From assembly GCA_002786715.1 (NCBI GenBank), contig PCTW01000070.1, positions 1 to 64,000 of the forward strand: a stretch of 64,000 nucleotides of DNA, in the 5' to 3' direction. The position numbers and the translations under genes are program-made. The notes beneath the pieces are model-generated. The model had not been told where the DNA came from and ran no database searches. It saw nothing but the letters and a program-made list of their open reading frames with translations. Below, piece after piece: positions 4,322-51,041 of the stretch. Position 1 is the stretch's first letter, and the number at the start of each line of letters is the position of its first letter. Source of the DNA: Bdellovibrio sp. CG22_combo_CG10-13_8_21_14_all_39_27. Its GTDB lineage: Bacteria; Bdellovibrionota; Bacteriovoracia; Bacteriovoracales; Bacteriovoracaceae.

Positions 4322-5463
4322 AGTTTTCGTCTTACTTCAATAAAGATTAGAACGAGAAGACTGATGATAGAAGCCAATGGTCCCATCAAAAAAGCTACTT
4401 TGACATCATACATCTCAACAACTCTGCCAAACAAATCATGCATTCCCAAGAGTAAAAAACCAGTGAGAGTTAACACGGAGGCAGTCATGAACTCAATTCC
4501 CGAATTGAAGTGAGTTTGTAACCAGGCCATGGTGGTGGGAAAAAACCAAGACATAGTTAGGCCAGTCAAAGCTAAAAAGTAATGGTTGGATAATCCTAAG
4601 TAAAAGAAGAGTAAAGTAAGGGCATGAGAAATGAGCAGGTGAAAAGTGAGAGAACCTGGAATTTTAAGGACGGAGAAAGCAATTCTACCAAAGGCCAAGC
4701 CCAAGAAAAAAAGGGCGAGCAAATAATTGGCTTGAGTCAGTGGCATTCTTTCATTTTCGGTCAAAAAATAAACCAATCTGGTTGAAACGAGAATTTCGGA
4801 AACAACATAAGAAGCTAGCATCAATCCAAAAGGAAGGCGTTGGAATAAATTCACTGGAGCTTTTAAAGGGGTCTTTGGAATTTCTCCGATGTCAGGCAAA
4901 TTTTTTAAAAGATAGAAGCTAAAGATAACGAGGGGAAAGAAGCTTAGGCAAAGATAGGCCAAATTCCATTTTCCCAAAAGGACAAAAAGAAAATTAAATA
5001 AAAGGGGAGCGATGAGAGAAGAAACTCCATAGGTCGAGTGAAGACCGGAAAAAGCACGAGACATCAAACGAGGTGGAGCTGCTTTTGTTACTAGTAGGTT
5101 CATGCTGATGGTGCTGCCTCCAATTCCTAAACCTAAACACAATCCACTTATAATGAGCATGCTGTGTTTAAACTCCATGAAAAAGGGCATCAAGCTGACC
5201 ATGATAGTTCCTAAGAACATAAAGAAGAGTGAAGCGAGAATGGCCTTCACAATTCCAACATGAGGTAACCAATAGCGAGTTGTGAAATTCATGATGAAGC
5301 CTGAGAGGGCCACAACTGAGAAAAGACGTGAACCTTCGCTAGCGCTAAAGTCCATCTGTCTCAAAAATTCAGGATAAAAAGCTCCCCGGGTATTGTCGAT
5401 GAGGCCCAGACAGAACAGCGCCAAATAAGATAAAATCAGGTAATTCCATTTGATTTGTGACAT
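4309..5463 (-). CDS. MFS family transporter
   Basis: A 384-residue integral membrane protein with about 12 hydrophobic segments, a typical length for the major facilitator superfamily. The N-terminal helix contains LGLIDNTRGAFYPEF; helix 4-5 has the glycine-rich GLCLGLGIGGSTISMNLLV and the next segment includes SGLHSTYGVSSLIAP. The GAFYPEF and LHSTYG segments resemble the sugar/fucose permease-like branch, but the substrate cannot be told from sequence. The central loop around residue 200 is short. Convergent with the DUF2452 gene; no co-transcribed neighbour gives a functional hint. Confidence 0.8.
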   Translation of the reverse strand: MSQIKWNYLILSYLALFCLGLIDNTRGAFYPEFLRQMDFSASEGSRLFSVVALSGFIMNFTTRYWLPHVGIVKAILASLFFMFLGTIMVSLMPFFMEFKHSMLIISGLCLGLGIGGSTISMNLLVTKAAPPRLMSRAFSGLHSTYGVSSLIAPLLFNFLFVLLGKWNLAYLCLSFFPLVIFSFYLLKNLPDIGEIPKTPLKAPVNLFQRLPFGLMLASYVVSEILVSTRLVYFLTENERMPLTQANYLLALFFLGLAFGRIAFSVLKIPGSLTFHLLISHALTLLFFYLGLSNHYFLALTGLTMSWFFPTTMAWLQTHFNSGIEFMTASVLTLTGFLLLGMHDLFGRVVEMYDVKVAFLMGPLASIISLLVLIFIEVRRKLQSS

Positions 5464-9100: not shown

Positions 9101-10185
9101 GCATCAGGACGAGAGACCTCGATGTCAGTTCAGTGCAATTGACAAGAAATGGCCAGGACCCCATGGGGCAAGCGATGAAAGCTGCAGATACTAGTTCAGA
9201 TGTTGGACAGATTTCTGCTGCAAATAAAAAGGATGATCTAGGAACTATCATTGATGATGTTGATCAGGTCGTCCCTGTTTCAAATTTACCAGTGCCAGTT
9301 CCTGCTGCAAGTACCGCTTTAACTAAAACTGATGATGGACTTAGACTTGTATCAAAAATTTCAGATGATGTTGCTGATAGACTTGGACCTTTTTCAATTC
9401 TTCAAAGTAAGAAAGTTGACCTCGTCGATCCTAAGAATGGAGTCAGAATAAAAGGGGCAACTCTTGAAAGAGCGGAATTGTTACCTGATGGTAGCTATAT
9501 CCACCATTACCGTACTGCAGATGGAAACACAGTTAAAATTGATCTCGGTAAAGATCAGCTTATGATGGATTTATCAAAATTAGGCAGAGGCGAAGTTCAT
9601 TATGTCAGCTCAGAATCGTCTCAAGCTCGCAGGGCAATGGTAGAGGGGAGAATGAGTGAATTGAGGATGAATCGAGTTATTGAACATGAAGGTGTTCCAA
9701 TTCGCTTGAGTGGAAATAAAGCAGTCGCTCGTATAGAAGATCTTAGTGCTTCAAAACAGACTCATATTTTATTATTAGAAGATGGAACGAAGTTAAAAGG
9801 AAAGATACTTTCTTATAAAAATGGATTTATTGAAATGAGACTGGCAAATGGGAAAATTATCAAATTTCTATTTCCTAAGAAACTTGTAATGTTAGGGAAG
9901 GCTGGTCAATTGATAGATCTGATTTCTAATTCTAGTGATTATCAAGATAGAATTCGAAGAGGGGTTGCCGATAATGTTCCGCCTGTGAAAGGTCCGAAAA
10001 CAGACCCTGCTGGCGACGACCCAGCGAAGAAAGATTCATCTGAGACAACATTTGAGGATGAGGACACTGCCGTCAATGTTTATGATCTAGATCCGACAAA
10101 GGGTGGAAAGGCCGTTCAGTATAAACCGACTTATATTATTCCTCCTCCTGAGGGCTTTTCAGGAATCTTACGCGGGATGAATTAA
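6196..10185 (+). CDS. giant secreted protein with coiled coil and three SH3-like repeats
   Basis: A 1329-residue exported protein. Residues 1-22 are a signal peptide. Residues 60-420 are cysteine-rich, with a Trp-rich segment around 250 and two CxxC pairs near 370. Residues 380-480 contain Ala/Gly-rich amphipathic helices, 550-780 form a long Ala/Lys/Glu/Arg coiled coil with TolA-like composition, and 780-860 is a Pro/Thr/Lys linker. Three copies of a 45-residue beta-barrel-like module follow near 866-916, 929-976 and 1189-1236; each reads roughly G-D-x-V, then LRGKI/ISGQI/LKGKI, then a strand. The tail is acidic. No enzyme domain is visible. The ATG overlaps the previous stop (TGATG) and GAAGG lies nine bases upstream. 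A structural or surface role is likely, but the function is unknown. Confidence 0.75.
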   Translation: MRKILSLLCSFSLFILNIQAFAIENAGVEAESARLERERVQTEAVSNQVLAALQANEKEVRDASEVKETEEELASDYSIQMVAEQVELCKEKNGSWKKGMVQLPTEPEPFDCTHLALLEFEILKQQAGDNLNGESAALVCATKGWKKDDRLDFAKQLEGLGKLKHGIDEHFSCPGKNESTLSCARDVGCKVLKAGMAVSTAGLSLGVEKVMDVFGVKAPICSKDTLSKGSGLNYLGSCLTEAVWGVWKDLVSNVEGIWDIAKMGWSAVKGVASKAWGWVSSWWGNSDKAEDSTSIKQAFMESKPDSFFTKFINDPVGTFSEMMSGFMSYIGDSIQSNFGCAEWEESRLMNPINPPHCKTPVVSWKCASCEQKVQMACGTVGFVGGEVLLSFLTGGAINVAAKVGKTAAATKVAKAVSISGKFTGRLKAVDYAVKGFGISKRTALGLVARGGNFAVKVGSKLYKFRPSAAEKMLKVLRGGKKALSAVAYPFKKYGDLMEEAFVFGASGMSREAVRDLRAARLASKSIDGIRKIKTAGMSESAVSKFDDVGKAAEELRKAREQLLAAAKKGKADDASKTAFELARKNIDDATKKMVEARQALQAQVKADDIAKAQQVARAKEAEQRARDAEKARLLAERKAKEAAEAQRKLKAEEDARLLAQQQQRARDAAEAQRKIREAEAAQKRARDSQRAADAAEAQRKLKQAQANQTKMLESQKLADTAEAERKLKAAADQAKKQRDALKAQKDADEAAEASRIARQVADQEKAALEAARAEKSRKLLLANNTDEVSKTTKTTKADDVTDGSKIDDAGTLTLKSDTTPVASSGPARRPAKKPKEVKPTTIPKASKVDDAVAIEKPIVPDNLGAKGDRVEVAIKGSPEPLRGKIIDSSPNGVTLRQADGIDVSIPARNIDGARTRNLFETPNIPGLNIAKPGDNVVLLTSKGERISGQIEKVNDKSIRLIGENGKSVSIRTRDLDVSSVQLTRNGQDPMGQAMKAADTSSDVGQISAANKKDDLGTIIDDVDQVVPVSNLPVPVPAASTALTKTDDGLRLVSKISDDVADRLGPFSILQSKKVDLVDPKNGVRIKGATLERAELLPDGSYIHHYRTADGNTVKIDLGKDQLMMDLSKLGRGEVHYVSSESSQARRAMVEGRMSELRMNRVIEHEGVPIRLSGNKAVARIEDLSASKQTHILLLEDGTKLKGKILSYKNGFIEMRLANGKIIKFLFPKKLVMLGKAGQLIDLISNSSDYQDRIRRGVADNVPPVKGPKTDPAGDDPAKKDSSETTFEDEDTAVNVYDLDPTKGGKAVQYKPTYIIPPPEGFSGILRGMN

Positions 10186-10188
10186 GGG

Positions 10189-10288
10189 TTGCTACGTGGT
10201 GAGAAAATGAAAGAGGGAAATAGGCGGAGAGAGTTGCCCCATTTCCCTCTAAGGCTCCAATCTAATGGAGTCCACCACGTGGAGGCAA
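10189..10288 (+). ncRNA. candidate structured RNA with three-way junction
   Basis: Immediately after the giant-protein gene the sequence folds as a closed three-way junction. The outer stem is TTGC (10189-10192) with GCAA (10285-10288), then ACGTGGTG (10194-10201) with CACCACGT (10273-10280). Arm A is AGAGGGAAAT (10212-10221) with ATTTCCCTCT (10241-10250), fully complementary. Arm B is the 7-bp stem 10253-10259 with 10266-10272 closing a six-base loop. There is no terminal T-run, so it is not an ordinary terminator. It could be a small RNA, a processed 3' UTR element, or a leader of the penicillin-acylase gene 150 bases downstream. Strand is inferred, since the fold is nearly symmetric. It does not match any riboswitch core I know. 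Confidence 0.45.
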
Positions 10289-10380
10289 AGTAGCGTTAAT
10301 CCAGAAAATTTTCAAGTGTTTTACTCCAGCTTGTAAATATGATTCACAAGCAAAATTATTGAAATGAATGGATTCTTGTG

Positions 10381-10409
10381 ATGACTCGAGGGAGCTCTTT
10401 TTCTATAAT
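10381..10409 (+). promoter_or_regulatory. candidate promoter of the penicillin-acylase gene
   Basis: A perfect TATAAT at 10404-10409 lies 29 bases before the ATG, with a weak -35 ATGACT at 10381-10386 (17-base spacer). A strong AAAGGA ribosome site follows at the ATG. Confidence 0.5.
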
Positions 10410-10438
10410 AGGGCCTACCTCGAAATCAAAGGATTTTC

Positions 10439-12820
10439 ATGTATTTGGCAGGCTTTTTCGCCCTCCTCGTAGCACTCCTGATCCCAGCTGATCTGTTTCT
10501 CAAGTCGCACTTGCCGCTGATTGATGGTGAAGTTCAGGTTCCAGGGCTTTCATCTCAAGTGGAGATCTATCGCGACCGCTGGGGCATTCCGCATCTCTTT
10601 GCTCAAAATGATGAAGATTTGTTTAAGGCCTATGGCTATACCGTGGCTTCAGATCGTTTGTTTCAAATGGAACTTTTGCGAAGAGTTGTGAACGGAGAGT
10701 TGTCTGATTTGATTGGCGAAAAAGAAGAGCTGCTCAAAGCAGATAAAATGCTACGTAAGCTTCGGTTAAGAAAAAGTGCCGATGAATATTTAGAACTTCA
10801 TGAAAAAGATATGGACCCCCATCTTCTCAAAATTCTTAGTTCATTTGTTGATGGTATTAATTTTTATGTTTCAACTCGACCGATGCCACTTGAATTAAAA
10901 CTTTTGGGACAAAAGAGTATGAGACCATTTCAAGTGGCGGAGATAATGGGTGTTGCTGGTTATATGGGTCTCTCTTTCGCTGAAGGGCTTATTGCGGATC
11001 CTCTGAAGACTTCATTGCTTGAAGAGTTTTCACCCGAAATGGTGGGAGAGCTTTTCATTAAAGAGAATGCCGATACTAATCAAGCTGTGCAAAACAAAAC
11101 CAAAGTTTCACTTCAGTCACAATGGTACAAGGATATCATGATTGCGATGCAGGAAATTGATCAAACAGTTGGTCTTTTTCATGGCAGTAATTCTTGGGTT
11201 CTCTCTCCTAAACGATCTAAAAGCGGAGCTGCCCTATTGGCCAATGATCCCCATATTGCTTTTTCGAATCCTTCCGTTTGGTACGAGGCCCATCTCCATA
11301 CTCCGGAGTGGGAAGTTTATGGAAACTTCGTTCCCTTGGCGCCATTTCCGGCCATTGGACATGATCGCAATCGTGCATGGGCAGTGACCATGGCCGAGGT
11401 CGATGACCAAGATATGTATCAAGAGCAAGTTGATTTTACTCAAAAAACTGTTCTGTTTAAAAATGCTCCCGTGCCTCTCAAAATCGAACAAGAGATCATC
11501 AAAGTTAAAGGAGCTGCGGATGTCAAAATTGACGTAATTTCAACTCCCCACGGCCCATTAGTTGATGACACTGACTTTGGATTGAAAGGAAAACACTTAG
11601 CTCTTAAATGGGCCTATCACAATCCGGAGAATCATACCTTGTCGGCCATTTATGAAATGATGAAGGCCACTAAATATGACGATTTTAAGAAGGCACTCGC
11701 TAAAGGTGTCACTCCAGCATTAAATGTCAGTTGGGTCGATCGTGAGGGGAATATTGCTTGGCATATTATGGCCAAGATCCCTGTTCTTCCTAAGGGCGTT
11801 GACTCTACCCAAGTTCTAGATGGTGCGAGCGGTAAACATGAGTATCTTCGCTATGCTACTTTTGAAGAAAATCCTCATATTTTAAATCCTGACAGTGGAG
11901 TGATTGTTACTGCCAATTATTATCCCGAATACAACCCTGGAAAACTTACCTTGCAAGGCTATTGGCAAGCGAGTGAACGTTTTGAACGCATTAACAAACT
12001 TTTAAGTGAAAAAGAACTGTGGGACCTTGATGATCTTAATGAAATTCAATTCGATGCCTATGCACAGCTCTACGATTATTTTAAACCAGTGCTGCTCAGT
12101 TCAGTGACGAAAAAAAGAAACCATCTAGATGAAGTCGCTTTAAAAAAATTAAGAGAATGGGACGGGGTTTCGAGAGTCAATAGTATCGGTAGTTCAATTT
12201 TTTATATGTGGTTTTATCAAATCACTCAGCACATGTTAAAAGACGAAATGGGTGCAGATAGACTTAAAGCTTATGGCAGTGTCGCTGATATGTTGCACTT
12301 TATGAAATGGGCCATCACTCATCCAGAATCGAAATGGTGGGATGATCATACGACGATGAGCGAAGTCGAGAGCAGAGAAGTGATTGTCGAGAAAGCCTTT
12401 TATGAGGCTATTGATGCTTTAAAAATCAGGCTTGGAAATCATATTGGATCTTGGAAATGGGGCAAACTTCACACCATTGAGTTTGAGCATTTGCTAGGAA
12501 AGAAAAAGCCTTTAAACAAAATTTTTAATATCGGGCCATTACCTGCACAGGGCTCATTTAGTCACATTGATAATATGTCCTACAGAAGATATGAGGATTC
12601 ATTTGATGTGAAATTAGGGCCATCCACACGTCGTCTCATCGATATGGCAGAGCCGGAAAGGTCATGGGGAATTCTGCCAACTGGCAATAGTGGGCTTTTT
12701 AACTCGCCCCATTTTGACGATCAAACCCCACTTTATCTGAAGGGAAAGTACAGAAGACAGCTCTTGGATATTGCTGATATCAAAAAAAGTGGTTTTAACT
12801 TATTGAAATTAAAGCCCTAA
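10439..12820 (+). CDS. penicillin acylase family protein (S45 N-terminal nucleophile hydrolase)
   Basis: S45 enzymes cleave amide bonds such as those of beta-lactams and N-acyl homoserine lactones after self-processing into alpha and beta chains. An N-terminal hydrophobic segment (residues 1-22) would anchor or export the protein. The alpha part has VEIYRDRWGIPHLFA and YGYTVASDRLFQMEL. The beta chain should begin at Ser250 in HGSNSWVL, the expected nucleophile, followed by ANDPHI, GHDRNRAWAVT and GPLVDD. Late motifs include LPTGNSGLFNSPHFDDQTPL. Length (793 residues) is normal. It has its own promoter and AAAGGA seven bases before the ATG. Substrate unknown; acyl-homoserine lactone or peptide amide are possible. 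Confidence 0.9.
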   Translation: MYLAGFFALLVALLIPADLFLKSHLPLIDGEVQVPGLSSQVEIYRDRWGIPHLFAQNDEDLFKAYGYTVASDRLFQMELLRRVVNGELSDLIGEKEELLKADKMLRKLRLRKSADEYLELHEKDMDPHLLKILSSFVDGINFYVSTRPMPLELKLLGQKSMRPFQVAEIMGVAGYMGLSFAEGLIADPLKTSLLEEFSPEMVGELFIKENADTNQAVQNKTKVSLQSQWYKDIMIAMQEIDQTVGLFHGSNSWVLSPKRSKSGAALLANDPHIAFSNPSVWYEAHLHTPEWEVYGNFVPLAPFPAIGHDRNRAWAVTMAEVDDQDMYQEQVDFTQKTVLFKNAPVPLKIEQEIIKVKGAADVKIDVISTPHGPLVDDTDFGLKGKHLALKWAYHNPENHTLSAIYEMMKATKYDDFKKALAKGVTPALNVSWVDREGNIAWHIMAKIPVLPKGVDSTQVLDGASGKHEYLRYATFEENPHILNPDSGVIVTANYYPEYNPGKLTLQGYWQASERFERINKLLSEKELWDLDDLNEIQFDAYAQLYDYFKPVLLSSVTKKRNHLDEVALKKLREWDGVSRVNSIGSSIFYMWFYQITQHMLKDEMGADRLKAYGSVADMLHFMKWAITHPESKWWDDHTTMSEVESREVIVEKAFYEAIDALKIRLGNHIGSWKWGKLHTIEFEHLLGKKKPLNKIFNIGPLPAQGSFSHIDNMSYRRYEDSFDVKLGPSTRRLIDMAEPERSWGILPTGNSGLFNSPHFDDQTPLYLKGKYRRQLLDIADIKKSGFNLLKLKP

Positions 12821-12905
12821 CGGCGATCGTTTAGAAAAACGACAGGACTAACTTTTTTTCAATCGAGACCTCTCATTTTTTGATTTATGGCAGAATGCCT
12901 AGGTT

Positions 12906-15119
12906 ATGAAAAAAATGATGTCTTCAATTGTATTGATTTCGGTATGTCCTATCCTCTTGGCAGGAGAAGTTCCGGGTAAATCTGTTCTTTTTCCCAATCA
13001 TGAAATTAAATTTGCTCATCAACGAGACTCTAGCAATGTAGCGATTCATCGCAGTCAGATTGTTGTTAACGATGTCTTTGATGGAAACAAGAAAGGCAAG
13101 CTTTCTTTTAAAGCCAGTGATGTTCAAGAATTAGTTCTTTTAAAGGAAATTCCAGAATTAAGAGGTCGACTCATCAATGCTTATGATGATGAGGATCGAA
13201 AGTTTTTGAGTCAATTGCATCTGAGATTAAATTTTAAACCTGATCAAAGTCCTGTTCTCATCACTGGAAATGAGAAACAAACTCTCTCTTCATTAGTCTT
13301 GTCCATTGACTTTAAAGTCGAAAATGAAGAACAGCGAAAAAAATTAGAAAGCGATTTTCATGTTATAGATCAATTATCCCTTCCGATGACTATGCAAGTT
13401 CGAACATTAAAAGATACGGGGCTAAAACTGGCCAAGTATTCAAAGGAAATTGGCCAGTATCCGTTAGGACTTAGTCAACGTGAAGTTGCCATGGTGGTTG
13501 ATAAATTCTTCAATCAAAAAATAGATCGAGAAACATTTGATAGTGAAAAGTTCTCTTCCTCAACTTTGGTATGGAGTACGATCACAGAAGTGATTAAGAA
13601 AACAAGAGGATTTAATTATATTAAGCCTTCTCGTATCCGCATGAGAGGTGGAGATGAAAGATCTTCACAGCTTTTTAACCAATTAAAGCTTAGAAAGATC
13701 ATGTCTAATCCTTCTATGATTGAGCAGAACCTTGAGATGAGAAACCTAAAAGGAGCATTGCCTGAATTTCGCTTTCTTTCTCTCAAAGATGAGCTTTGTA
13801 TTAAAGAATTAGAAGTGGCCAAAGATTTAGAATGTTTGGGAGCTCTCAAATTCAACCAATCTCAAGTTGACTCTGCGCTGAGTGAACTTGAGAAAATCTT
13901 TAAAGAGCGCTCTCTTTTGAAACATGATTATATCCATAAAGGGTTTGAAGCAAAAATTGATCATGAAATGAGCTTTATTCTCAAGTCTGATAATGATTTG
14001 ATTGATAGGGGAACTAAAGAAGCTCAGGTTTTACGATTGAGAATGTGGGATCAATTCCTAAAAATTGTTGCAAGAAACAAAAACTATGATGAGATTAGAT
14101 TTTTTGAAGAAGGCGGATTCTTCAAAGAGTACTCGCCAAGGTTTATCGACCTCCTCACAACTCAAATGCTAAATTCAAAAACAGAGCTTCTTACTCAAGC
14201 CGAAGTTCAAAGAGAATCGATCGAAAGCATTCGCGGAGAGTTTATTGATACGAAGTTAGAACACCTTGGCAATAATATGGCCAACGAGATTATTAATATT
14301 TTAGGACAAATTTTCAAGAAACGTGACTGGGTTCCTTATATTAGAATTTCAAGTAATTTTCGTCAGAATTATTTAACAGAGTTCCGTGAAAGAGTTTTTA
14401 AAGATCTTTTCACCGATAAGGGAATGAAGCCTGGTGACATTATTCTCGAAAAGGATTTGCAGGCAAATACAGATGTCCTCATTCCTGGATACTGGGTTCA
14501 TGCTTCAATTTATCTTGGGTCAATTAAAGACCTCAAGCGCTTAGGTATGTGGAATAGTCCGAGCTTTGACGTCATCCAATATGAAATCGAAAAATATAAA
14601 ACAAGTGTTGATCGACAACACTACTTAAATGATGTTTGGAAAAACAATCTGGATTGGGAAGATATACCATGGTTTTATGAAAGTGACAGAACAGGAGTTG
14701 CCGTTCACCCGTTGATTAAGTTTTTACGAACCGATGGAATGGCGGTGTTAAGACCGACAAAGAATTATGGTGTGGCTCAAATTCAAGAAGTCATGAAAAG
14801 GGCCAATCAAAGAATGTATTTTTCTTATGACTATAATCATAATGTGAGGAATAAGTTTACAGTTTCGTGTTCTAAAGTCGTGCTTAAAGTTTTTGACCAA
14901 ATAACCTTTCCTGTGAGCCATAATCTTGGATACGTCTCCGTATCTCCTGATCAAATTGGACAGGCCGTTTCTCTTGATCCTCAACGACAGGATGAAGGGG
15001 AGCTTAAGCTCATCATGTTTTTAGATGCCTATGCTAAAGGAAAAAAGACTTATGATTACTCAAATCCTGAAACCTACGGGACTTATCGGGAATACCTGAA
15101 ATCAAGTGGTGCTCTTTAA
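12906..15119 (+). CDS. secreted protein with C-terminal YiiX-like permuted papain domain
   Basis: A 737-residue protein with a signal peptide cleaved near LLAG. About 480 residues of mixed alpha/beta sequence with no recognisable family precede a C-terminal domain with KPGDIILEKD, His532 in WVHASIYLG, YDYNHN, and Cys655 in SCSKVV. This order (His before Cys, GDI at the start) is that of the circularly permuted NlpC/P60-like YiiX/YebB group (C92), which includes thiol amidases and lipid hydrolases. A peptidoglycan, lipoprotein or lipid substrate in the periplasm or outside is plausible. Catalytic residues are assigned by motif only. It stands alone between the acylase and a response regulator gene. 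Confidence 0.65.
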   Translation: MKKMMSSIVLISVCPILLAGEVPGKSVLFPNHEIKFAHQRDSSNVAIHRSQIVVNDVFDGNKKGKLSFKASDVQELVLLKEIPELRGRLINAYDDEDRKFLSQLHLRLNFKPDQSPVLITGNEKQTLSSLVLSIDFKVENEEQRKKLESDFHVIDQLSLPMTMQVRTLKDTGLKLAKYSKEIGQYPLGLSQREVAMVVDKFFNQKIDRETFDSEKFSSSTLVWSTITEVIKKTRGFNYIKPSRIRMRGGDERSSQLFNQLKLRKIMSNPSMIEQNLEMRNLKGALPEFRFLSLKDELCIKELEVAKDLECLGALKFNQSQVDSALSELEKIFKERSLLKHDYIHKGFEAKIDHEMSFILKSDNDLIDRGTKEAQVLRLRMWDQFLKIVARNKNYDEIRFFEEGGFFKEYSPRFIDLLTTQMLNSKTELLTQAEVQRESIESIRGEFIDTKLEHLGNNMANEIINILGQIFKKRDWVPYIRISSNFRQNYLTEFRERVFKDLFTDKGMKPGDIILEKDLQANTDVLIPGYWVHASIYLGSIKDLKRLGMWNSPSFDVIQYEIEKYKTSVDRQHYLNDVWKNNLDWEDIPWFYESDRTGVAVHPLIKFLRTDGMAVLRPTKNYGVAQIQEVMKRANQRMYFSYDYNHNVRNKFTVSCSKVVLKVFDQITFPVSHNLGYVSVSPDQIGQAVSLDPQRQDEGELKLIMFLDAYAKGKKTYDYSNPETYGTYREYLKSSGAL

Positions 15120-15149
15120 TATATTGTTTTAATCGTGCATAATAGGACT

Positions 15150-15956
15150 ATGACGACTAAAAAAATATCGATACTTATCATTGATGATGAAGTTCAGCTT
15201 GAGAAGATTTATTTCACCTTTCTCAATCGTTTAAACGCCAATATTGATTTTCATGATCATCCTCAAAAGGGATGGAAGGCCATTGATACAAAAGAATATG
15301 ACCTCATCATTACAGATCTAAAAATGCCTATCATAAATGGTGACGAATTTATTGGAATTGTAAGAAGCTCTAGGCTCAATTCCCATACTCCTATTATATT
15401 GTCATCCGCTCATATTGATCGTCCTGTGATGGCAGAACTTTCTCGACAGAGTAAAGTCTATTTTGTCTCTAAGCCCTTCGACAGTAAAACTCTTGTGGAT
15501 ATGGTAAGCAAAGTATTAGGTGCAAAAGGTAAGCAGGGCAAACTCAATCAAGACGTTTGGCAACATTGGCAGCAAAATTTTTTGAAAGTTTTGGATTCGC
15601 AATCTCTTCAAATTCAAGATCAACAAGAATTAGAAACTTGGGATCAATCCAATGTTGAGTCCATTCTCGCTCAATACTCTGTCCTACAAGAAGAGGGACA
15701 TCTTAATATTTCACTTCTACTAAAGACTAAGGCTTTCCTCGACATCGCGGGGAACCGTCAGGGGACCCATTATAATGATTTGGAAGCAGAATCTTTTTTC
15801 GTTTGGGAACAAATGCTTTCTAAGTGCGCTAAGACTTCAACCGCCGTTAGTTTTAGCAAAGTTATTGGTCATCAATTTATGACGATGGGTGGACAGAAAA
15901 AGCCTCTCTGGCAAATCACAACTTCACTTGGCGAAATCGTTATTTTCCGAGTTTGA
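15150..15956 (+). CDS. response regulator with uncharacterised C-terminal domain
   Basis: Residues 1-125 form a canonical receiver: IIDDE, phosphoacceptor Asp56 in IITDLKMP, SSAH and the switch Lys in SKPFD. After a linker, about 130 residues form a domain I do not recognise (it contains GTHYNDLEAESFFVWEQM and ends with a beta-rich stretch). No DNA-binding helix-turn-helix, GGDEF, EAL or HD motif is visible. I start at ATG 15150, preceded by TAGGA; a GTG at 15135 would add five residues. No sensor kinase is adjacent. Its stop abuts the convergent gene's stop. Confidence 0.8.
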   Translation: MTTKKISILIIDDEVQLEKIYFTFLNRLNANIDFHDHPQKGWKAIDTKEYDLIITDLKMPIINGDEFIGIVRSSRLNSHTPIILSSAHIDRPVMAELSRQSKVYFVSKPFDSKTLVDMVSKVLGAKGKQGKLNQDVWQHWQQNFLKVLDSQSLQIQDQQELETWDQSNVESILAQYSVLQEEGHLNISLLLKTKAFLDIAGNRQGTHYNDLEAESFFVWEQMLSKCAKTSTAVSFSKVIGHQFMTMGGQKKPLWQITTSLGEIVIFRV

Positions 15957-37497: not shown

Positions 37498-38685
37498 ATG
37501 GGTGTTTTTTGGATCTCACTAATATTGAATCTCTTCAATGGCGCTCATGCTTACGTTTCTAGCCAAACGACTTTCTCCACTGGCGCCTATCGCGATTATG
37601 CAGAAAAGAATCAATTTTTGACCACTCTCGACTGGCAATTTTCTTCGCTTCATATTGGAGGAAGTGAGTTCTATTCAGACCTCGGTATTAATAATAATCT
37701 TGAGAGAGGTGAGTGGAATCTCTATCCGCAACAACTTCATCTCACTCTTCCCCTTTTTCAAGCGAAGGTAAAAGTTGGTCGACAGGTTTGGAGTGAAGCG
37801 CTGGACTACTCTTTGATGGACGGAATTGTTTTGGCCGTTCCTATTCATCATCATTTAAAGTTTGTTAGCTACGCAGGTGGTTTGACTCATCTTGAACAAA
37901 CAAATGAGCTAATAACCAATGAACAGGTTTATGGTGGAACACTGAAATGGTCGCAAGAGCAATTTCGATTAAATGTGGGGCAGTTGGCACGTTATCAAGA
38001 CAATAAGTCAACTTCGGTTGGATATGCCCAAGCACTTTATTCAATTCCAGATTTCTATCAAAGTCTCCTCTTAGGAGAAATGAGATTCAATCAATCCAGA
38101 GGTCGTTCTGAAAAATGGACAGCAATGATTGAAACACATCCCTTTGAGAAACTTGCCAGCAGCTACACTTATCTCGGAACTCGACCAGACTTATCAATGC
38201 CGACAAAACAAAGCATTTGGTACCGCTTAACGAGTAGCTCGACTCAATCGGCCCATCAGTTCAATCAATCCTTGCAAATAACCAAAGAGCACGGCCTAAC
38301 TTTGTCTTTGAGAAGAATTTTGTTTACATCTAGAACGAAAGAAGAGAGGGGAAGCAAGGCTGAGCTTGCATGGGATTGGATTGTCCTTGATCGTCGTCTC
38401 GACACTCACCTCACATATTTGAAATCATTTGGCGGAGAGATGGTAAGTCTTGGTTTGAATGGCTCGCAATTCATGACGACTTCTTGGTCAATCAATAGTG
38501 GAGTTGAGGTTAGCGATTTTAAAAAAATTAATGGTATTTCGACCCACGCCTACGAATTGCGGACAGGGCTCAAAAAAAGCTGGAGTCGAAGTTTCGAGAC
38601 TCAGCTTTCGATGGAGTTTGAAAGAAATCATTATTATGCACTGGATATGAGGGCCATGCTCTATGTTTCACATTTTACTTATTAG
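37498..38685 (+). CDS. outer-membrane beta-barrel protein of the cytochrome cluster
   Basis: A 395-residue exported protein (signal peptide ending AHA). The rest alternates polar and hydrophobic residues in many amphipathic strands (LTTLDWQFSSLHIGG, LHLTLPLFQAKVKVGRQVW), often with aromatic belts, and ends with Tyr in VSHFTY, as outer-membrane barrels do. It is shorter than MtrB, the 28-strand barrel of the Shewanella cytochrome conduit, but its place at the head of a multihaem operon suggests a similar casing or an associated porin. Its 3' end overlaps the next gene by 23 bases. A TA-rich GATAATATAA lies just before the start. Confidence 0.65.
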   Translation: MGVFWISLILNLFNGAHAYVSSQTTFSTGAYRDYAEKNQFLTTLDWQFSSLHIGGSEFYSDLGINNNLERGEWNLYPQQLHLTLPLFQAKVKVGRQVWSEALDYSLMDGIVLAVPIHHHLKFVSYAGGLTHLEQTNELITNEQVYGGTLKWSQEQFRLNVGQLARYQDNKSTSVGYAQALYSIPDFYQSLLLGEMRFNQSRGRSEKWTAMIETHPFEKLASSYTYLGTRPDLSMPTKQSIWYRLTSSSTQSAHQFNQSLQITKEHGLTLSLRRILFTSRTKEERGSKAELAWDWIVLDRRLDTHLTYLKSFGGEMVSLGLNGSQFMTTSWSINSGVEVSDFKKINGISTHAYELRTGLKKSWSRSFETQLSMEFERNHYYALDMRAMLYVSHFTY

Positions 38686-39256
38686 CTTGTTGTTGTCCCT
38701 AGGGGTACAAGCTGAAGTTAAAAAAATTCAAAATGAGAAACCGCTCCTTGCAAGTACGGTGAGGCAGCTCTTTTCCCATAAAAAGCATGAAATCGTTTTA
38801 AAAAAGCTGCAAGTGAGTTGTCAGGATTGCCATTCTTTTTCAATTAAAAGTCGTGATCCAGGTCCTCTCGGAGCGCCCGTAGCAATGGGCTTTTTAAAAC
38901 CGAACCAAAATTCCTGTCACCAGTGCCATCTTGAAAAGGTGATGGTCTCGACCCCCTCACAGTGTATTCTTTGCCACCAATCGGGTGAAAATCTTAAACC
39001 TGAAGACCATAACGCTTTATGGAAACAGCAACATGCTCAATTTGCTCGCCTCGATTCCCAAGGATGCCAAGACTGTCATACTCAAAAGTCTTGTTCACAA
39101 TGCCATTTTAAACGCGATCAGATGAACCCCATGGTTCATCGAGGCAATTTTCGTTTAACTCATTCAATAGATGCTCGACTCAATCCTGCCAGTTGTGTCC
39201 AATGCCACCAGCAACAGCAGTTTTGTCAAAAATGTCATGACGGGAGTGTGAGATGA
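38663..39256 (+). CDS. periplasmic c-type cytochrome with seven CxxCH sites
   Basis: A 197-residue exported cytochrome; signal peptide ends VQA. Seven haem-binding CxxCH motifs are visible (CQDCH, CHQCH, CILCH, CQDCH, CSQCH, CVQCH, CQKCH) plus His residues such as FSHKKHE for axial ligation. Size per haem (about 28 residues) is typical of multihaem electron-wire proteins. Starts within the barrel gene; its stop overlaps the next start by ATGA, so the operon is translationally coupled. Confidence 0.88.
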   Translation: MFHILLISLLLSLGVQAEVKKIQNEKPLLASTVRQLFSHKKHEIVLKKLQVSCQDCHSFSIKSRDPGPLGAPVAMGFLKPNQNSCHQCHLEKVMVSTPSQCILCHQSGENLKPEDHNALWKQQHAQFARLDSQGCQDCHTQKSCSQCHFKRDQMNPMVHRGNFRLTHSIDARLNPASCVQCHQQQQFCQKCHDGSVR

Positions 39257-39534
39257 AAAAAATGCTCATCCTCGCGATTCTTTTCTTTTCTAGTTGTGGA
39301 AAAGAAAAAAGACAATTTGAGGTTTATCAAGTCGCTCAACCTGCAGACATTCTCTTGAGTGTCGAAAATCATCCTCATGGTTACGGCGAGTCTCAGTGCT
39401 TTGAATGTCACGTGGTAGATAATATTCATCGCGATAACCAAACCGGTTCCTCGACACTAGAGTTGGCAAGAGAGTTGACTCGAACCCAAGGCATTAGTAG
39501 CTGTCAAACTTGTCATGGGAGGAATGGGTTATGA
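39253..39534 (+). CDS. dihaem cytochrome c lipoprotein
   Basis: A 93-residue lipoprotein: signal peptide with lipobox FSSC (Cys15), then two haem motifs CFECH and CQTCH and a spare His in NHPHGYG. Anchoring to a membrane would place two haems next to the barrel or periplasmic cytochromes. ATGA overlaps on both sides. Confidence 0.8.
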   Translation: MKKMLILAILFFSSCGKEKRQFEVYQVAQPADILLSVENHPHGYGESQCFECHVVDNIHRDNQTGSSTLELARELTRTQGISSCQTCHGRNGL

Positions 39535-39956
39535 GAATCCTTGTCTTTCTTATAAGCTTGGCCTGTGCTCAGGTTCGTCTTGATCCCCATGGGTTTAAAA
39601 ATTGGGAACTTTCAAAAATCGATTCCAAAAAAGAGAAAGGATGTTTAGTTTGTCATTTGGAGACAGGAAAAAACTGGAAATTGCAAATTGATGTGGCAGA
39701 TCGCTGTACGGATTGTCACAATAAAGCGACCCATAGTGGGATTCTTGAGCATAAAAAGGCGAAAGTTGATTGTCTTTCTTGCCATCGTCCTCATCGGGCA
39801 TTATTGCCAGGAGCGAGTGAAGTGGAGACTTATTATGAAAAGAGCTACTTCAGTGTTGGGACACATCACAAGCTGACAGATAAGATTCATTATGAGCGTT
39901 CAACGATGCCCATGTTAAAAAAGAGCTGCTCGAATTGTCATGGAGACCTCCCATGA
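39531..39956 (+). CDS. tetrahaem cytochrome c
   Basis: A 141-residue exported protein with an N-terminal hydrophobic segment and four haem motifs: CLVCH, CTDCH, CLSCH, CSNCH. I start at ATG 39531, where GGAGG lies eight bases upstream and the start overlaps the previous stop; the ORF reading from a TTG at 39510 has no signal peptide at the right place. The RPHRALLPGA segment resembles the doublet CxxCH-RPH seen in the next protein too. Overlaps the downstream gene by ATGA. Confidence 0.82.
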   Translation: MRILVFLISLACAQVRLDPHGFKNWELSKIDSKKEKGCLVCHLETGKNWKLQIDVADRCTDCHNKATHSGILEHKKAKVDCLSCHRPHRALLPGASEVETYYEKSYFSVGTHHKLTDKIHYERSTMPMLKKSCSNCHGDLP

Positions 39957-41848
39957 TTATTGGGATGATCTTGTTTTTTCTTTTTTTCCAGAAGAGCTTT
40001 GCTCTCAGTGTTGCTGGACAACTCTTTAGCATTGAAATCGCGGCACCAACGAAATTAACTATTTGCCAAAATTATCTATGGGCCTCATCTCTTCATTCTC
40101 AAGAGATTAAGGCTTTTGATCTTCAAAAGGGAGACTTGAAAAAGAGTTTTTCATTTCCAAAGGGAAAGAGTTGGAAAGTTTCTGGACTAAATTGTGTCAA
40201 TGATCATGTGGCAGCATCCTTTTGGAATCCTGAGACTAAAACGGCACAAATTGTGATTTCTCAAAATCAGGTTAAAGCAATAACACATTTACCCGGGCGT
40301 GGCGACGTCAAGGCGATTCAGTGGATTGATGGTTATTATTTTTTGCTACAAGATCAATTCTATCGAACTCGTGATTTTAAAAACTATCAAGATCAAAAGA
40401 TTTTGACTCGAAAAGAATTAAAACCGAGTGATAGTGAACTGAAGAAAAATCCCTTTGCTCAGTGGCAAAATTCAATGCCGATCACGAGTGGGCATTACAT
40501 TGATTTCTTTTTTAATAATAATCGTTTTTGGTTTCTGGACGCTTTCATGCAAACGGTGATGAGTACTAAAAGCATTTGGCCGCTTGAAGACTTTAAGCCT
40601 CTCGGAGAGTGGGGAGTTTGGGAAGGCTCGCTGATGTTTCCCAAGGCCATGACTTTTTTTGATCGTGAAATAGTCATTGCCGATAGTGGATTAAAACTTT
40701 TAAATCGTTATGACTCCGCAGGCAGGTACGTAGATTCCTATACGATCGAAAATTTGGAGAAACGATTTGATTACCTCATCGATGTGGCGAGTTCTTCCAA
40801 AGTTGTTTTTGCAGCTGACTTTTTAAAAAATAAAATCTATGCGCTAAATTTAAATGTCGCTGATCAAATGCGCAGTGGCGTCTTTAGAAGAAATCATTTT
40901 CAACACCCCGAAGTGACGAAAGATTGGGATCAGGTTCGTTGTCTCAATTGTCACGATGGAACAGAGGCTTATCATTTAAATGTCATTGAACCCCAATCTC
41001 AACATCATCGGTTAAGAGTTATAAATAAAACAGAAACGAAACTTCCCCTTTATCAAAATTCACAGGTCTCCTGTAGTTCCTGCCATGAAAATCACCACAA
41101 ACAAATTGATGATAATCCCCATTTCTTAAGAAAGTCTAAAACTGAACTTTGTCTCGAGTGTCATCAAGACAAAGGCTCTTCGGATAAAAACCATCTCAAT
41201 CTTCAAAAGATTAGCAAGCTAGCTTCTCAGTGCACCGATTGTCATCGTGCCCATCAAGCCAATGACAAATTACTGATTCAAGATGGGATTAAAACTTGTA
41301 CCCACTGCCATCAGCAGCAAATTTCTCATAGCTCACATCCGATTAATAATGAGACGAGCTGTATCGATTGCCATTCTCCCCACCATGGTGACAAAAGTAC
41401 GTCTTGGAGCAAAGAGGCAACATGTTTAAAATGTCATCAAAGTGAAGGGGAGTATATGGGGCAGAATAAACACCTCCAATTGCTTCCCAAGAAAAGTGCT
41501 CATTGGAATCAAAAGGAGATGACTTGTCTTTCTTGTCATCGCCCACATGATGGCAATCATTCCGCTGAACAACGTTGTCTTGAATGTCATAAGGAGCAAA
41601 GTGGACATCGTCATGTCAAGGCCCTCTCTGTTGCACTGGCCGGTCGAGCAGAGGGATTAGTATTAGGTTCGGGCCATCGATTGAGTTGTATCACATGTCA
41701 TGATCCTCACAGAGGTGAAGATCGCGATAAGTATCTTCGACAAAATGATACTAGTAAAATTCGAAATCTCTGTGCCAGCTGTCACACTGGAGATGTTGAA
41801 CAGTTGGTTCGCGAATTTCATCCTCGCTTTGAAAGGAAAAAGAAATGA
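39953..41848 (+). CDS. beta-propeller fused to eleven-haem cytochrome
   Basis: A 631-residue exported protein (signal peptide ending SFA). Residues 20-320 look like a beta-propeller: repeated strands with Trp, such as LWASSLHSQEIKAFDL and VIADSGLKLLNRYDSAG. The C-terminal 310 residues hold eleven CxxCH motifs (CLNCH, CSSCH, CLECH, CTDCH, CTHCH, CIDCH, CLKCH, CLSCH, CLECH, CITCH, CASCH), several followed by PH or AH (CxxCHxPH) as in doubled-CXXCH cytochromes. The propeller may dock a partner or a surface substrate. I chose ATG 39953 (ATGA overlap, GGAGA upstream) over a TTG at 39935. Confidence 0.8.
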   Translation: MIIGMILFFLFFQKSFALSVAGQLFSIEIAAPTKLTICQNYLWASSLHSQEIKAFDLQKGDLKKSFSFPKGKSWKVSGLNCVNDHVAASFWNPETKTAQIVISQNQVKAITHLPGRGDVKAIQWIDGYYFLLQDQFYRTRDFKNYQDQKILTRKELKPSDSELKKNPFAQWQNSMPITSGHYIDFFFNNNRFWFLDAFMQTVMSTKSIWPLEDFKPLGEWGVWEGSLMFPKAMTFFDREIVIADSGLKLLNRYDSAGRYVDSYTIENLEKRFDYLIDVASSSKVVFAADFLKNKIYALNLNVADQMRSGVFRRNHFQHPEVTKDWDQVRCLNCHDGTEAYHLNVIEPQSQHHRLRVINKTETKLPLYQNSQVSCSSCHENHHKQIDDNPHFLRKSKTELCLECHQDKGSSDKNHLNLQKISKLASQCTDCHRAHQANDKLLIQDGIKTCTHCHQQQISHSSHPINNETSCIDCHSPHHGDKSTSWSKEATCLKCHQSEGEYMGQNKHLQLLPKKSAHWNQKEMTCLSCHRPHDGNHSAEQRCLECHKEQSGHRHVKALSVALAGRAEGLVLGSGHRLSCITCHDPHRGEDRDKYLRQNDTSKIRNLCASCHTGDVEQLVREFHPRFERKKK

Positions 41849-41982
41849 TTGATACTGAATGGATGAAAAAACATAAATGGTGGTTGCATCTTCTGGCCTT
41901 GGTGATCGGCCTTTTCTTGGGCTGGTTCCTTTTTTTTCAAGTTCCTTTTCTCTATAGAGTCATTCCGCACGGAGGATTTTAG
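41845..41982 (+). CDS. 45-residue single-pass membrane protein
   Basis: A short ORF that falls inside the operon: ATG 41845 overlaps the previous stop (ATGA), AAAGGA lies eight bases upstream, and its TAG overlaps the GTG of the next gene (TAGTG). The protein has a basic start (MKKHKWW), one transmembrane helix (LHLLALVIGLFLGWFLFF) and ends HGGF. It contains no haem motif. Tight coupling on both sides argues that it is translated; it may be an assembly or anchoring subunit of the quinol-oxidising cytochrome encoded next. Confidence 0.7.
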   Translation: MIDTEWMKKHKWWLHLLALVIGLFLGWFLFFQVPFLYRVIPHGGF

Positions 41983-42710
41983 TGAAAAAGTTTGGGAAAA
42001 TTCTTCGGGCCTTTTTGATGTTAACTTTTCCCTCTCTATTAATTGGTATGGGGATCGGTGCCTATCCAGGTTACAAAACTTACGAGTATACATGGAAAGA
42101 CGCCAATTTTTGCATCTCTTGCCACGTCCATGATTATGCCACATATTCTTGGGAAGAGAGTTCACACGGACAAGCAACAACCTGTCACGATTGTCATCAT
42201 CAACCTCTACATCAGTATATTAAAGAAGCTTATGTTTATGTCACCAAACGTCCAGTTTTCCCAAAAGACCTTCATCACACTCCCAATGTTCCAAGTGATT
42301 TGTGTCAATCATGTCATCTCTCGGCCCATGCTGATCGCTCAACCATAACTGGGCCATTGGCAAAGGAAAATCTCGCCCACGTGCCTAAAGTGGATAAGCT
42401 CTACTTACATGCTTTCCATCTCGAGAGGAAAACCAAGCTCACGCTCCTCAAATCTCATCAATTATCTGATGAAGAGCGAATGGGACAATTTGTGAATCCT
42501 AAGGTTATTAAACAGGATGAAGAACGAGCTATTGCTTGCAGTGATTGTCATGGAGGTCCAACCAATCGGGCCCATCACTTTTCAGCAGTTGATCTGTCAT
42601 GTGTTCGCTGCCACGGAAATATCCACCGTTCTCCCATGGGGCAAGAATACGGATGTCGCAATTGTCATTTTCAAGAATTTTTACTTCCGCTCGATAATTC
42701 TGCCAGGTGA
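41982..42710 (+). CDS. NapC/NrfH-like membrane cytochrome with six CxxCH sites
   Basis: Starts at GTG 41982, with GGAGG six bases upstream. After one N-terminal transmembrane helix comes the family pattern CISCHVHDYATYSWEESSHG, then CHDCH, CQSCH, CSDCH, CVRCH and CRNCH, six haems in 242 residues. NrfH and NapC proteins oxidise menaquinol and pass electrons to periplasmic partners; usual forms bind four haems, so two extra sites sit in the C-terminal half. It would feed the other cytochromes of the operon. Last gene on this strand; 30-base convergent overlap with the eight-haem gene. Confidence 0.85.
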   Translation: MKKFGKILRAFLMLTFPSLLIGMGIGAYPGYKTYEYTWKDANFCISCHVHDYATYSWEESSHGQATTCHDCHHQPLHQYIKEAYVYVTKRPVFPKDLHHTPNVPSDLCQSCHLSAHADRSTITGPLAKENLAHVPKVDKLYLHAFHLERKTKLTLLKSHQLSDEERMGQFVNPKVIKQDEERAIACSDCHGGPTNRAHHFSAVDLSCVRCHGNIHRSPMGQEYGCRNCHFQEFLLPLDNSAR

Positions 42711-43550
42711 TTTCCAAACGGGAGTTTCAGGCGAAGAAATCGCGCGTTTCACGGCCGGATGATTTTTTGGCATGACACTATTTTTACTAACGGCTTCGTG
42801 GCAGAGAGTACATTGCTTGGCCGGTGGATCTGAAGGGTAAGTATCATCTTTATGATATTTATCGAGGGGGTTATGGCACTGAGTACACTGCTTCTTCTCC
42901 GTTTCTCGATAGGTCCCAGCTTCTCTCGGATGTCTCATAAAAGAAGCAAAATCATGAGGGACTTGGTAATGACATTGGGTACAGCTCATAAAACTTTTTT
43001 CATTGCGACGGTGAAATTCTCCATCCTTTTGATGACAATGCTGACAACTCACTTTTAAGTTTTCATCTTTTTTTCCATCCCAATAAGCTTTGGTATGATT
43101 TTTTCCAACCCATCCGGCTTGATGAGGATATTGATGACAAGTGGTACAGTTTTGAGCAACTTTTATGGTGAGACCACTTTCACTCTGGTGACAGCTTTTA
43201 CAATTATTAGAATCTTTCAAATAAGCAACTCCATGATCAAAGCTCTCTTTGAATTGAGGAGTATGGGGATAATTCTTATGACAACCCATACAGAATTCTT
43301 GGCGAATTTCACCAGTTTCGTTTTGAGTTGGTATATGACAACTTTGGCAAAGTTTTTGATCTCGCAAGTAGAAGGCACCATGCTGACGGCTTTTTTTAAA
43401 TTCAGCGGAATGAGGGAAGATCACTTTGAGGGTTTCGGAACTTTGTTGTTGCTCTAAAGTGTTCACAACTACCGGCTCATCATTTTTTTGATGACATGAA
43501 GTCATCATGATCGAAGATACTATCGAAATAAAAATAAGCCATTTGTTCAT
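42681..43550 (-). CDS. eight-haem cytochrome c lipoprotein
   Basis: A 289-residue lipoprotein: lipobox MTSC (Cys19) and eight CxxCH motifs (CQSCH, CMGCH, CKSCH, CTTCH, CQHCH, CTQCH, CTQCH, CTLCH). Several are followed by Tyr-Pro-His or His pairs for bis-His coordination. No CxxCK (the nitrite-reductase haem) is present, so it is not NrfA. It could be the outer-membrane exit of the cytochrome chain or a terminal reductase. It is transcribed toward the operon, from its own upstream region, and converges on the NapC-like gene. Confidence 0.85.
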   Translation of the reverse strand: MNKWLIFISIVSSIMMTSCHQKNDEPVVVNTLEQQQSSETLKVIFPHSAEFKKSRQHGAFYLRDQKLCQSCHIPTQNETGEIRQEFCMGCHKNYPHTPQFKESFDHGVAYLKDSNNCKSCHQSESGLTIKVAQNCTTCHQYPHQAGWVGKNHTKAYWDGKKDENLKVSCQHCHQKDGEFHRRNEKSFMSCTQCHYQVPHDFASFMRHPREAGTYRETEKKQCTQCHNPLDKYHKDDTYPSDPPAKQCTLCHEAVSKNSVMPKNHPAVKRAISSPETPVWKSPGRIIERK

Positions 43551-49352: not shown

Positions 49353-51041
49353 ATGATGAAAATGCTTTTATGTGCACTGATACTTGTTACTCAATCGGCC
49401 ATGGCCTTTGATTGGAATGAGCCGGATTGGTCAGCGAATTCGACTTTGCCTGCAGAAGGCTCTCGCCAGAATCTTTATCAGCTCCCTGAAGACCAATTCT
49501 CACAAATTCAAGATGTCGGCTATGTCCACGCGCTTCGCTGGCCAGTGAACGTCTCAGGTCTCTATATTCCCTATAAGCCCCTCGAAAATTTTTTAGAAAG
49601 TGATAGCAATAATCCGATTAAGCGCTTGATTCAAAAATTTGGCCAACGTCGTCTTGGTTACAGTGATATGGACGGGCTCTATGCTTGGCTTGGATTGAAC
49701 AAGTATCCTGATGAGGGATCAGTCACTGGAATTTATCGCATTCCTTTTCCCGACGGGTTTAAACCCAAGTATCGCATGGGAGCGAGTATTCTCAATCTCA
49801 ATGGGGTTCAGGGTTTAACATTCGGCTGCGCCGGCTGCCACTCGGGAGTCTTCATGGGACGCACCATTATGGGGCTCACCAACAAGCGACCGCGCGCCAA
49901 TGAATTTTTTATGATGGCGAAAAAATATGTACCCAAAATTCCTTCGCATCTTTTTGCCTACGGGACTAATGCCAGCGAAGAAGAGCGCAAGCTGTACAAG
50001 TATACCCAAGACAATTTGAGAGCGGTGGGGGCGGTTATGCCTCAATCCCTCGGTCTTGATACATCACTTCCGCACGTGGCCCTTTCTTTATCACATCGCA
50101 AAGATGACGAGTATGCGACTAAGTCGCGGGTGCTTGAGCGAAATCCAACTCCGAATAAGCTTGAGACGATGGTGGCGGATTCAAAACCTCTTCCTTGGTG
50201 GAATTTAAAACATAAGACTCGTTGGCTCTCTGACGGTTCAATCGTTGCGGGCAATCCTATTCTTACTAACTTTTTATGGAATGAATTGGGAAGAGGAACG
50301 GATCTTAAAGAGCTTGAGCAATGGATGAAAGATAATCAAGATACGGTTCGAGAATTAACCGCTGCTGCTTTTGCCACGCAAGCTCCTCGTTGGACTGATT
50401 TTTTTCCAGCGGGAAGCATTGATCTTGATTCAGCAAAACGTGGTCAGACACTTTTTAAGAACAGCTGTCAAAAGTGTCATGGCGAATATCAAAAAGCCTG
50501 GGATCTTCCCAATGCTTCGGAACTCTCAGAGGTTGAAATCTTAAGCAATTCAAAAGTTCTTTATCCTAAGAAAACCGAAGTCAAAGATGTAGGAACTGAT
50601 CCCAATCGTTGGATGGCGACACAATACTTTGCTGAACGTTTAAATAAGCTACGCATTTCAAAATGGATGAAGACCGTGGTTGAACCACAAAAAGGTTATG
50701 TCCCGCCACCGCTGGAAGGAATCTTTTCTCGCTATCCTTACTTCCACAACAACTCGATTCCTAATCTTTGTGCCTTGATGGAACATCCTACGCGTCGACC
50801 GAAATTTTTCGTGCAAGGGCCATCAACAGACGCCTCTCATTACGATGCTGATTGTGTGGGCTATCCAGTTGGGGACAAGATTCCAGCTTCGTGGATGAAA
50901 GAGAAAGAGGCCCATTATAAGGCCAATAAGCCAGGACTACTCAACATTGGTCATTCGAAGGCCTTCTACGATGAGCAGAGCCAGCCGCTTATGTCAGAGA
51001 GCGAAAAACGTGACCTGCGCATGTTCTTAAAAACACTATAA
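49353..51041 (+). CDS. RoxA-like dihaem c-type cytochrome
   Basis: A 562-residue exported protein (signal peptide ending AMA) with two haem motifs, CAGCH near residue 160 and CQKCH near 375. Later segments include YVPPPLEGIFSRYPYFHNNSIPNL, like the SVPTLxDLL-type pattern of MauG/RoxA cytochromes. RoxA and RoxB are secreted dihaem oxygenases that cleave rubber; this resembles that branch in size and layout but the substrate cannot be inferred. It may instead act as a peroxidase or electron carrier. It has its own promoter and Fur-like box, so iron may control it. Confidence 0.65.
   Translation: MMKMLLCALILVTQSAMAFDWNEPDWSANSTLPAEGSRQNLYQLPEDQFSQIQDVGYVHALRWPVNVSGLYIPYKPLENFLESDSNNPIKRLIQKFGQRRLGYSDMDGLYAWLGLNKYPDEGSVTGIYRIPFPDGFKPKYRMGASILNLNGVQGLTFGCAGCHSGVFMGRTIMGLTNKRPRANEFFMMAKKYVPKIPSHLFAYGTNASEEERKLYKYTQDNLRAVGAVMPQSLGLDTSLPHVALSLSHRKDDEYATKSRVLERNPTPNKLETMVADSKPLPWWNLKHKTRWLSDGSIVAGNPILTNFLWNELGRGTDLKELEQWMKDNQDTVRELTAAAFATQAPRWTDFFPAGSIDLDSAKRGQTLFKNSCQKCHGEYQKAWDLPNASELSEVEILSNSKVLYPKKTEVKDVGTDPNRWMATQYFAERLNKLRISKWMKTVVEPQKGYVPPPLEGIFSRYPYFHNNSIPNLCALMEHPTRRPKFFVQGPSTDASHYDADCVGYPVGDKIPASWMKEKEAHYKANKPGLLNIGHSKAFYDEQSQPLMSESEKRDLRMFLKTL

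Follow-up and report, generated by a model that had tools for sequence, protein, structure and literature searches.

Analysis of the first 64,000 nucleotides of contig PCTW01000070.1 from Bdellovibrio sp. CG22_combo_CG10-13_8_21_14_all_39_27 (hereafter the window) uncovered a cluster of eight genes at positions 37498-43550, which encode an outer-membrane barrel (A), six multihaem c-type cytochromes (B to G) and one small membrane protein (S). We propose that these genes probably specify a porin-cytochrome conduit, which would carry electrons from the menaquinol pool to the cell exterior. Such a route had been suggested in a first-pass annotation of this DNA, and it is supported by the conserved synteny of A, B and C, the plugless model of the barrel, the lipoprotein signals, the distal histidines of the haems and the presence of the menaquinone gene menA in the window's genome. 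Further support comes from the sharing of the same 15 genomes by S and F, all of them with the barrel; from the alternative NrfC/NrfD module of relatives, which is another type of quinol oxidoreductase; from the relationship to MtrA of both E and stand-alone proteins with 9-10 CXXCH motifs, the latter encoded upstream of the barrel; from variable lipoproteins with 8-30 haems that adjoin the core; and from a ResB/CcsA pair of cytochrome c maturation genes in the window's genome. However, the likeness to the Mtr, undecahaem electron transfer (Uet), PCC4 and Geobacter Pcc/Ext systems is greater than had been claimed. If the proposal holds, the cluster represents a new conduit for electrons across the outer membrane, built on a barrel family of its own and found in no fewer than 29 genera of a single phylum. 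As this barrel is unseen by the Pfam, NCBIfam and MtrB models, surveys of extracellular electron transfer that use those models would overlook it. The family would also constitute a natural experiment, in which one conduit core is paired with two different quinol-oxidising modules, with the tiny membrane protein S strictly bound to one of the two.

Gene organization and haem-binding motifs

The cytochromes B to G contain 7, 2, 4, 11, 6 and 8 CXXCH motifs respectively. These 38 account for every CXXCH in a six-frame translation of the cluster, and only 5 more occur in the remaining 58 kb of the window. When the residues of the six cytochromes are shuffled, such motifs number 0.25 on average and never more than 3, and a chance origin of this density was accordingly rejected. 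A re-check of the open reading frames confirmed the haem counts and gene positions of the first-pass annotation; the tetrahaem gene D is likewise real, but its start had to be corrected to 39531. Gene A overlaps B by 23 nucleotides, and ATGA overlaps join B to C, C to D, D to E and E to S. The TAGTG overlap that had been noted together with these is also present, but it is made by S, a gene absent from the earlier list, at its junction with F. With S counted, the genes from A to F form an unbroken chain of overlapping genes, whereas G is convergent and overlaps F by 30 nucleotides (Table 1). No CXXCK site was found in the window's genes, and the cluster has no catalytic subunit and no molybdenum enzyme, which led us to reject a nitrite reductase or other periplasmic reductase. 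An oddity of assembly was also rejected, because the E-S-F triplet is common to 15 genomes.

Table 1. Genes of the cluster, with positions in the window
Gene	Product	Positions	Strand	Basis
A	Outer-membrane barrel, 395 residues, signal peptide ending AHA, 22 predicted strands, C-terminal aromatic residue	37498..38685	+	AlphaFold2 model
B	7-haem c-type cytochrome, 197 residues	38663..39256	+	Cytochrome c7-like; adjoins A in relatives
C	Dihaem predicted lipoprotein, 93 residues, lipobox FSSC, +2 residue Gly	39253..39534	+	Lipobox and distal His conserved
D	Tetrahaem cytochrome, ~141 residues, signal peptide	39531..39956	+	Paired_CXXCH_1 above Pfam cut-off
E	NHL six-bladed propeller (~residues 22-300) fused to 11-CXXCH MtrA/DmsE-like cytochrome	39953..41848	+	Profile matches, Foldseek
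S	Single-helix membrane protein, 45 residues, ends PHGG plus one or two residues	41845..41982	+	Same 15 genomes as F, adjoins F
F	Hexahaem NapC/NrfH-family membrane cytochrome, GTG start	41982..42710	+	PF03264 match
G	8-haem predicted lipoprotein, lipobox MTSC, +2 residue His	42681..43550	-	Homologues beside core in many loci

The barrel-cytochrome core across the phylum

A barrel profile run against all 369 genomes available for the phylum recovered the family in 35 genomes belonging to 29 genera, and 34 loci, the window included, were compared. B adjoins A on its downstream side in every locus whose contig reaches that far (33/33), and the gene after B is C in 31 of 32 loci, the remaining one (L079) having C upstream. 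The gene next after these three usually encodes a tetrahaem cytochrome, and many loci additionally have a G-related lipoprotein with 8 to 30 haems beside the core. The length of this outer cytochrome seems freely variable, as seen in relatives of G with 30 (L030:1787-4267, +), 25 (L032:407-2740, +) and 18 CXXCH motifs (L023:13321-14841, +) beside the same core. The barrel tree comprises two well-supported halves, and the A-B-C order is kept in both. Thus the cluster, whose absence from relatives had been named beforehand as a point that would tell against the conduit, is syntenic across the phylum.

B is the most conserved protein of the core, with seven conserved distal histidines for its seven haems (33 sequences), and conserved distal histidines are likewise available to both haems of C (32 sequences) and all four of D (15 sequences). 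The spare conserved histidine for every haem of these three proteins, together with the lack of CXXCK, fits electron transfer and not catalysis. The lipobox cysteine of C is kept in 32/32 members, and the sorting residues of C and G predict that both are outer-membrane lipoproteins, with D being a likely periplasmic carrier.

The barrel that had been recognized from the sequence was modelled as a single chain by AlphaFold2 from an alignment of 31 sequences, yielding a confident 22-strand structure (predicted local distance difference test score, pLDDT, 90.1; predicted template modelling score, pTM, 0.80) that lacks a plug domain and whose turns are mostly short. None of the 31 members scanned matched an NCBIfam family, any Pfam family convincingly, or the MtrB/PioB family TIGR03509 at an E-value of 0.1. 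Searches with barrel A recovered no relative among PDB sequences and nothing among plasmids, and Foldseek returned only generic barrels, with a query template modelling score of at most 0.57 among the matches listed. No end branch of the family tree is longer than that of the window's barrel (2.08 changes per site), although the neighbouring B and F show ordinary divergence. In one further genome (G028) the barrel gene is split into two reading frames by one internal TAA (L074:1493-2773, -), through either decay or an assembly error. Barrels of the MtrB/PioB type, all divergent and below the curated cut-off, occur elsewhere in 16 of the 369 genomes (L095-L100 among them), and none was found in the window's genome. 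Nine of these 16 also have the barrel A family, indicating that the two are different proteins which are able to coexist.

A wide empty barrel would leave a hole in the membrane unless something filled it, and the ever-adjacent B would be its obvious filler. Alternatively, the barrel might be an ordinary solute channel, with the cytochromes working as a chain in the periplasm to reduce a soluble acceptor that the barrel lets in. The best Foldseek matches of barrel A do include the solute porins OpdK and MOMP, B and D are small soluble cytochromes, and the Geobacter porin ExtI is tied to selenite/tellurite reduction (PMC5877670). Nevertheless, we regard a solute channel as quite improbable, given that the cluster lacks a catalytic subunit, CXXCK or molybdenum enzyme, that every core haem has a distal histidine, that the sorting residues of C and G predict an outer-membrane location, and that an unplugged 22-strand pore would leak unusually.

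Quinol-oxidising modules and the direction of electron flow

In the window's half of the barrel tree the partner of the core is either E-S-F or an NrfC/NrfD complex. The propeller half of E matches the NHL domain of TRIM71 in profile comparisons (6.6e-23) and NHL domains in Foldseek (1.2e-12), so that the propeller predicted in the first-pass annotation is real. Its cytochrome half, which folded at low model confidence, gives a profile match to MtrA (6r2q_A, 3.5e-21). Against the DmsE/MtrA family TIGR03508, E scores 62.5 bits and the stand-alone MtrA-like relatives, which match MtrA more strongly than E does (1.4e-37), score 66-105 bits, all below the cut-off of 192 bits. The fusion of a propeller to 11 haems had been placed outside the known Mtr sets; as a fusion it indeed has no Mtr counterpart, but its 11-haem half is recognizable by profile as an MtrA/DmsE relative, and hence the gene set does not stand entirely apart from the Mtr systems. 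A scan of genome contigs with E, which extended to other phyla, gave a single weak multihaem match.

F matches the NapC/NirT family PF03264 with 25.7 bits, above the Pfam gathering cut-off of 24.1, which bears out its earlier assignment as a NapC/NrfH-like protein. Its score against the NrfH equivalog TIGR03153 (36.2 bits) is far under the cut-off of 134.2, and no CXXCK (NrfA) partner is encoded among the window's genes. The 10 aligned members of this family show 48-53% identity to the window's F. S has no meaningful Pfam match and terminates in FQVPFLYRVIPHGGF, with PHGG being invariant in 11/11 aligned members. Strong matches to its profile (E < 1e-8) were found in 15 genomes, and F matches in exactly the same 15, which span 15 genera and six families and in each of which the gene order is E-S-F and the barrel is present. 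The probability that all 15 fall within the 35 barrel genomes is 2e-17 on the assumption of independent genomes, a figure that kinship makes too small. We infer that S could be a subunit or an assembly factor of F.

In the other half of the tree (clade II), 12 of 15 loci have an MtrA-like gene with 8-10 CXXCH motifs immediately before the barrel gene, which is the mtrAB arrangement, mostly with NrfC/NrfD in the vicinity; one of the others is cut by a contig end and two are without an upstream MtrA-like gene. E-S-F occurs in one clade II genome at the barrel locus (L037) and in another on a separate contig (L123). The alternative module includes NrfD and an NrfC-type Fe-S protein exported by the twin-arginine translocation pathway.

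In the conduit that we propose, the products would form a complex in which F, probably helped by S, takes electrons from menaquinol at the inner membrane and hands them to E, whose MtrA-like wire would lead into the periplasm and whose NHL propeller would dock to a partner. From E, or through the small carrier D, electrons would enter the bis-histidine 7-haem B seated in barrel A, and then pass by way of C and G to an external acceptor. In relatives, E-S-F is replaced or joined by a stand-alone MtrA-like cytochrome and a tetrahaem/NrfC/NrfD complex, which would make the system a conduit core with interchangeable quinol-oxidising modules. A bolder version, which we consider doubtful, is that of an independently evolved wire, in which the 22-strand barrel holds a 7-haem cytochrome instead of one of the MtrA type and is fed by a supercomplex of F, the PHGG protein and the NHL-MtrA fusion; as the fusion would bridge the periplasm in one piece, no soluble shuttle would be needed.

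Certain observations weigh against the outward conduit: the 22-strand pore is narrower than that of MtrB, Foldseek found no solved structure resembling barrel A as a barrel-cytochrome pair, and the window's genome has two haem-copper oxidase genes. Because it thus has genes for oxygen respiration too, electron uptake is possible, and the same conduit might run inward, passing electrons taken from Fe(II), from a different mineral or from a second cell via G, C and the barrel to the quinone pool or an oxidase. This is a serious rival, though on balance an unlikely one. Conduits of this kind run both ways, and MtoAB and PioAB work in uptake. NapC/NrfH and NrfCD modules, on the other hand, are mostly quinol oxidisers, although hosts of the MtoAB type also use CymA-like proteins. 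Uet, which has porin, NHL and 11-haem parts in common with this cluster, is an uptake system (PMC10734462).

Downstream of the cluster, the window encodes a 562-residue dihaem cytochrome (49353-51041, +) akin to rubber dioxygenases of the RoxA type and to cytochrome c peroxidases, with scores under the curated cut-offs.

Comparison with known systems

The first-pass annotation held that no described system has this composition. None of the systems tested matches, and no description of the gene set was found in the open-access literature (subscription papers and preprints being outside this scope), but Uet, PCC4 and the Geobacter Pcc/Ext systems share much of the part list. MtrCAB, MtoAB and PioAB resemble the cluster in having a barrel adjoining multihaem cytochromes, an MtrA-related cytochrome (E, or the stand-alone upstream gene in relatives) and, as with CymA, a NapC-family quinol oxidiser. 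They differ from it in the barrel, which here has 395 residues and 22 predicted strands and gives no TIGR03509 match; moreover, they offer no equivalent of B, C, S or the NHL fusion, and the cluster has no MtrC. The hidden Markov model searches that had been suggested as a check led to rejection of an Mtr system, since the barrel is not recognized by TIGR03509 and the scores against DmsE lie under the cut-off.

Uet, known from Tenderiales/Gallionella (PMC10734462), likewise combines a porin, an 11-haem cytochrome with doubled CXXCH, NHL repeats and a tetrahaem cytochrome. In the present cluster, however, the NHL and 11-haem parts are one protein and the set is extended by F, S, B and C, the two systems being set apart by the description of Uet and not by barrel homology. 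Neither the peptidylprolyl isomerase nor the three trihaem cytochromes that mark Uet turned up in the cluster, whether among its open reading frames or in scans against protein families. PCC3 and PCC4 are predicted porin-cytochrome conduits (PMC5566968), of which PCC4 has a porin and 4-, 5- and 10-haem cytochromes, one subgroup also having a PF13247 Fe-S protein like that of the NrfC-type module of relatives. Their haem numbers are otherwise different, and their marker, a five-helix inner-membrane protein containing two WX3HX13H motifs, is absent from the window and the 34 loci, NrfD or NapC-like proteins taking its place; PCC3/PCC4 were rejected on account of this absence from the cluster. 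The OmbB-OmaB-OmcB, ExtABCD, ExtEFG and ExtHIJKL systems of Geobacter also unite a barrel with multihaem and lipoprotein cytochromes (PMC5585712), but by their descriptions they are without an NHL fusion, a NapC partner or S. These shared parts raise the possibility that the cluster is a divergent member of a conduit of the Uet, PCC4 or Geobacter Pcc/Ext type, which we find rather improbable in view of the missing Uet and PCC markers, the fusion of propeller to cytochrome, and the presence of F, S, B and C, which fall outside those part lists.

The window's genome has a further multihaem cluster, which (L093, G000:C72:37000-56999; genes at 3877-4698 +, 9585-11369 +, 11371-13869 - and 13866-15197 -) encodes a lipoprotein with 21 CXXCH motifs, a second protein with 30, a 443-residue protein resembling an outer-membrane barrel, and a 273-residue membrane protein that contains SGIVG and a pair of WX3HX13H motifs, the signature of the PCC3 inner-membrane protein (PMC5566968). 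The host may have two outer-membrane electron routes.

By taxon, the closest precedent may be the mtrAB operon of the magnetotactic Bdellovibrionota metagenome-assembled genome FG-1 (PMC13200544), which is also a porin-cytochrome operon but of the MtrB type (E < 1e-45 to MtrB), in contrast to barrel A with no MtrB match. Most likely, the cluster described here functions in the manner of MtrAB, Geobacter Pcc and Uet.

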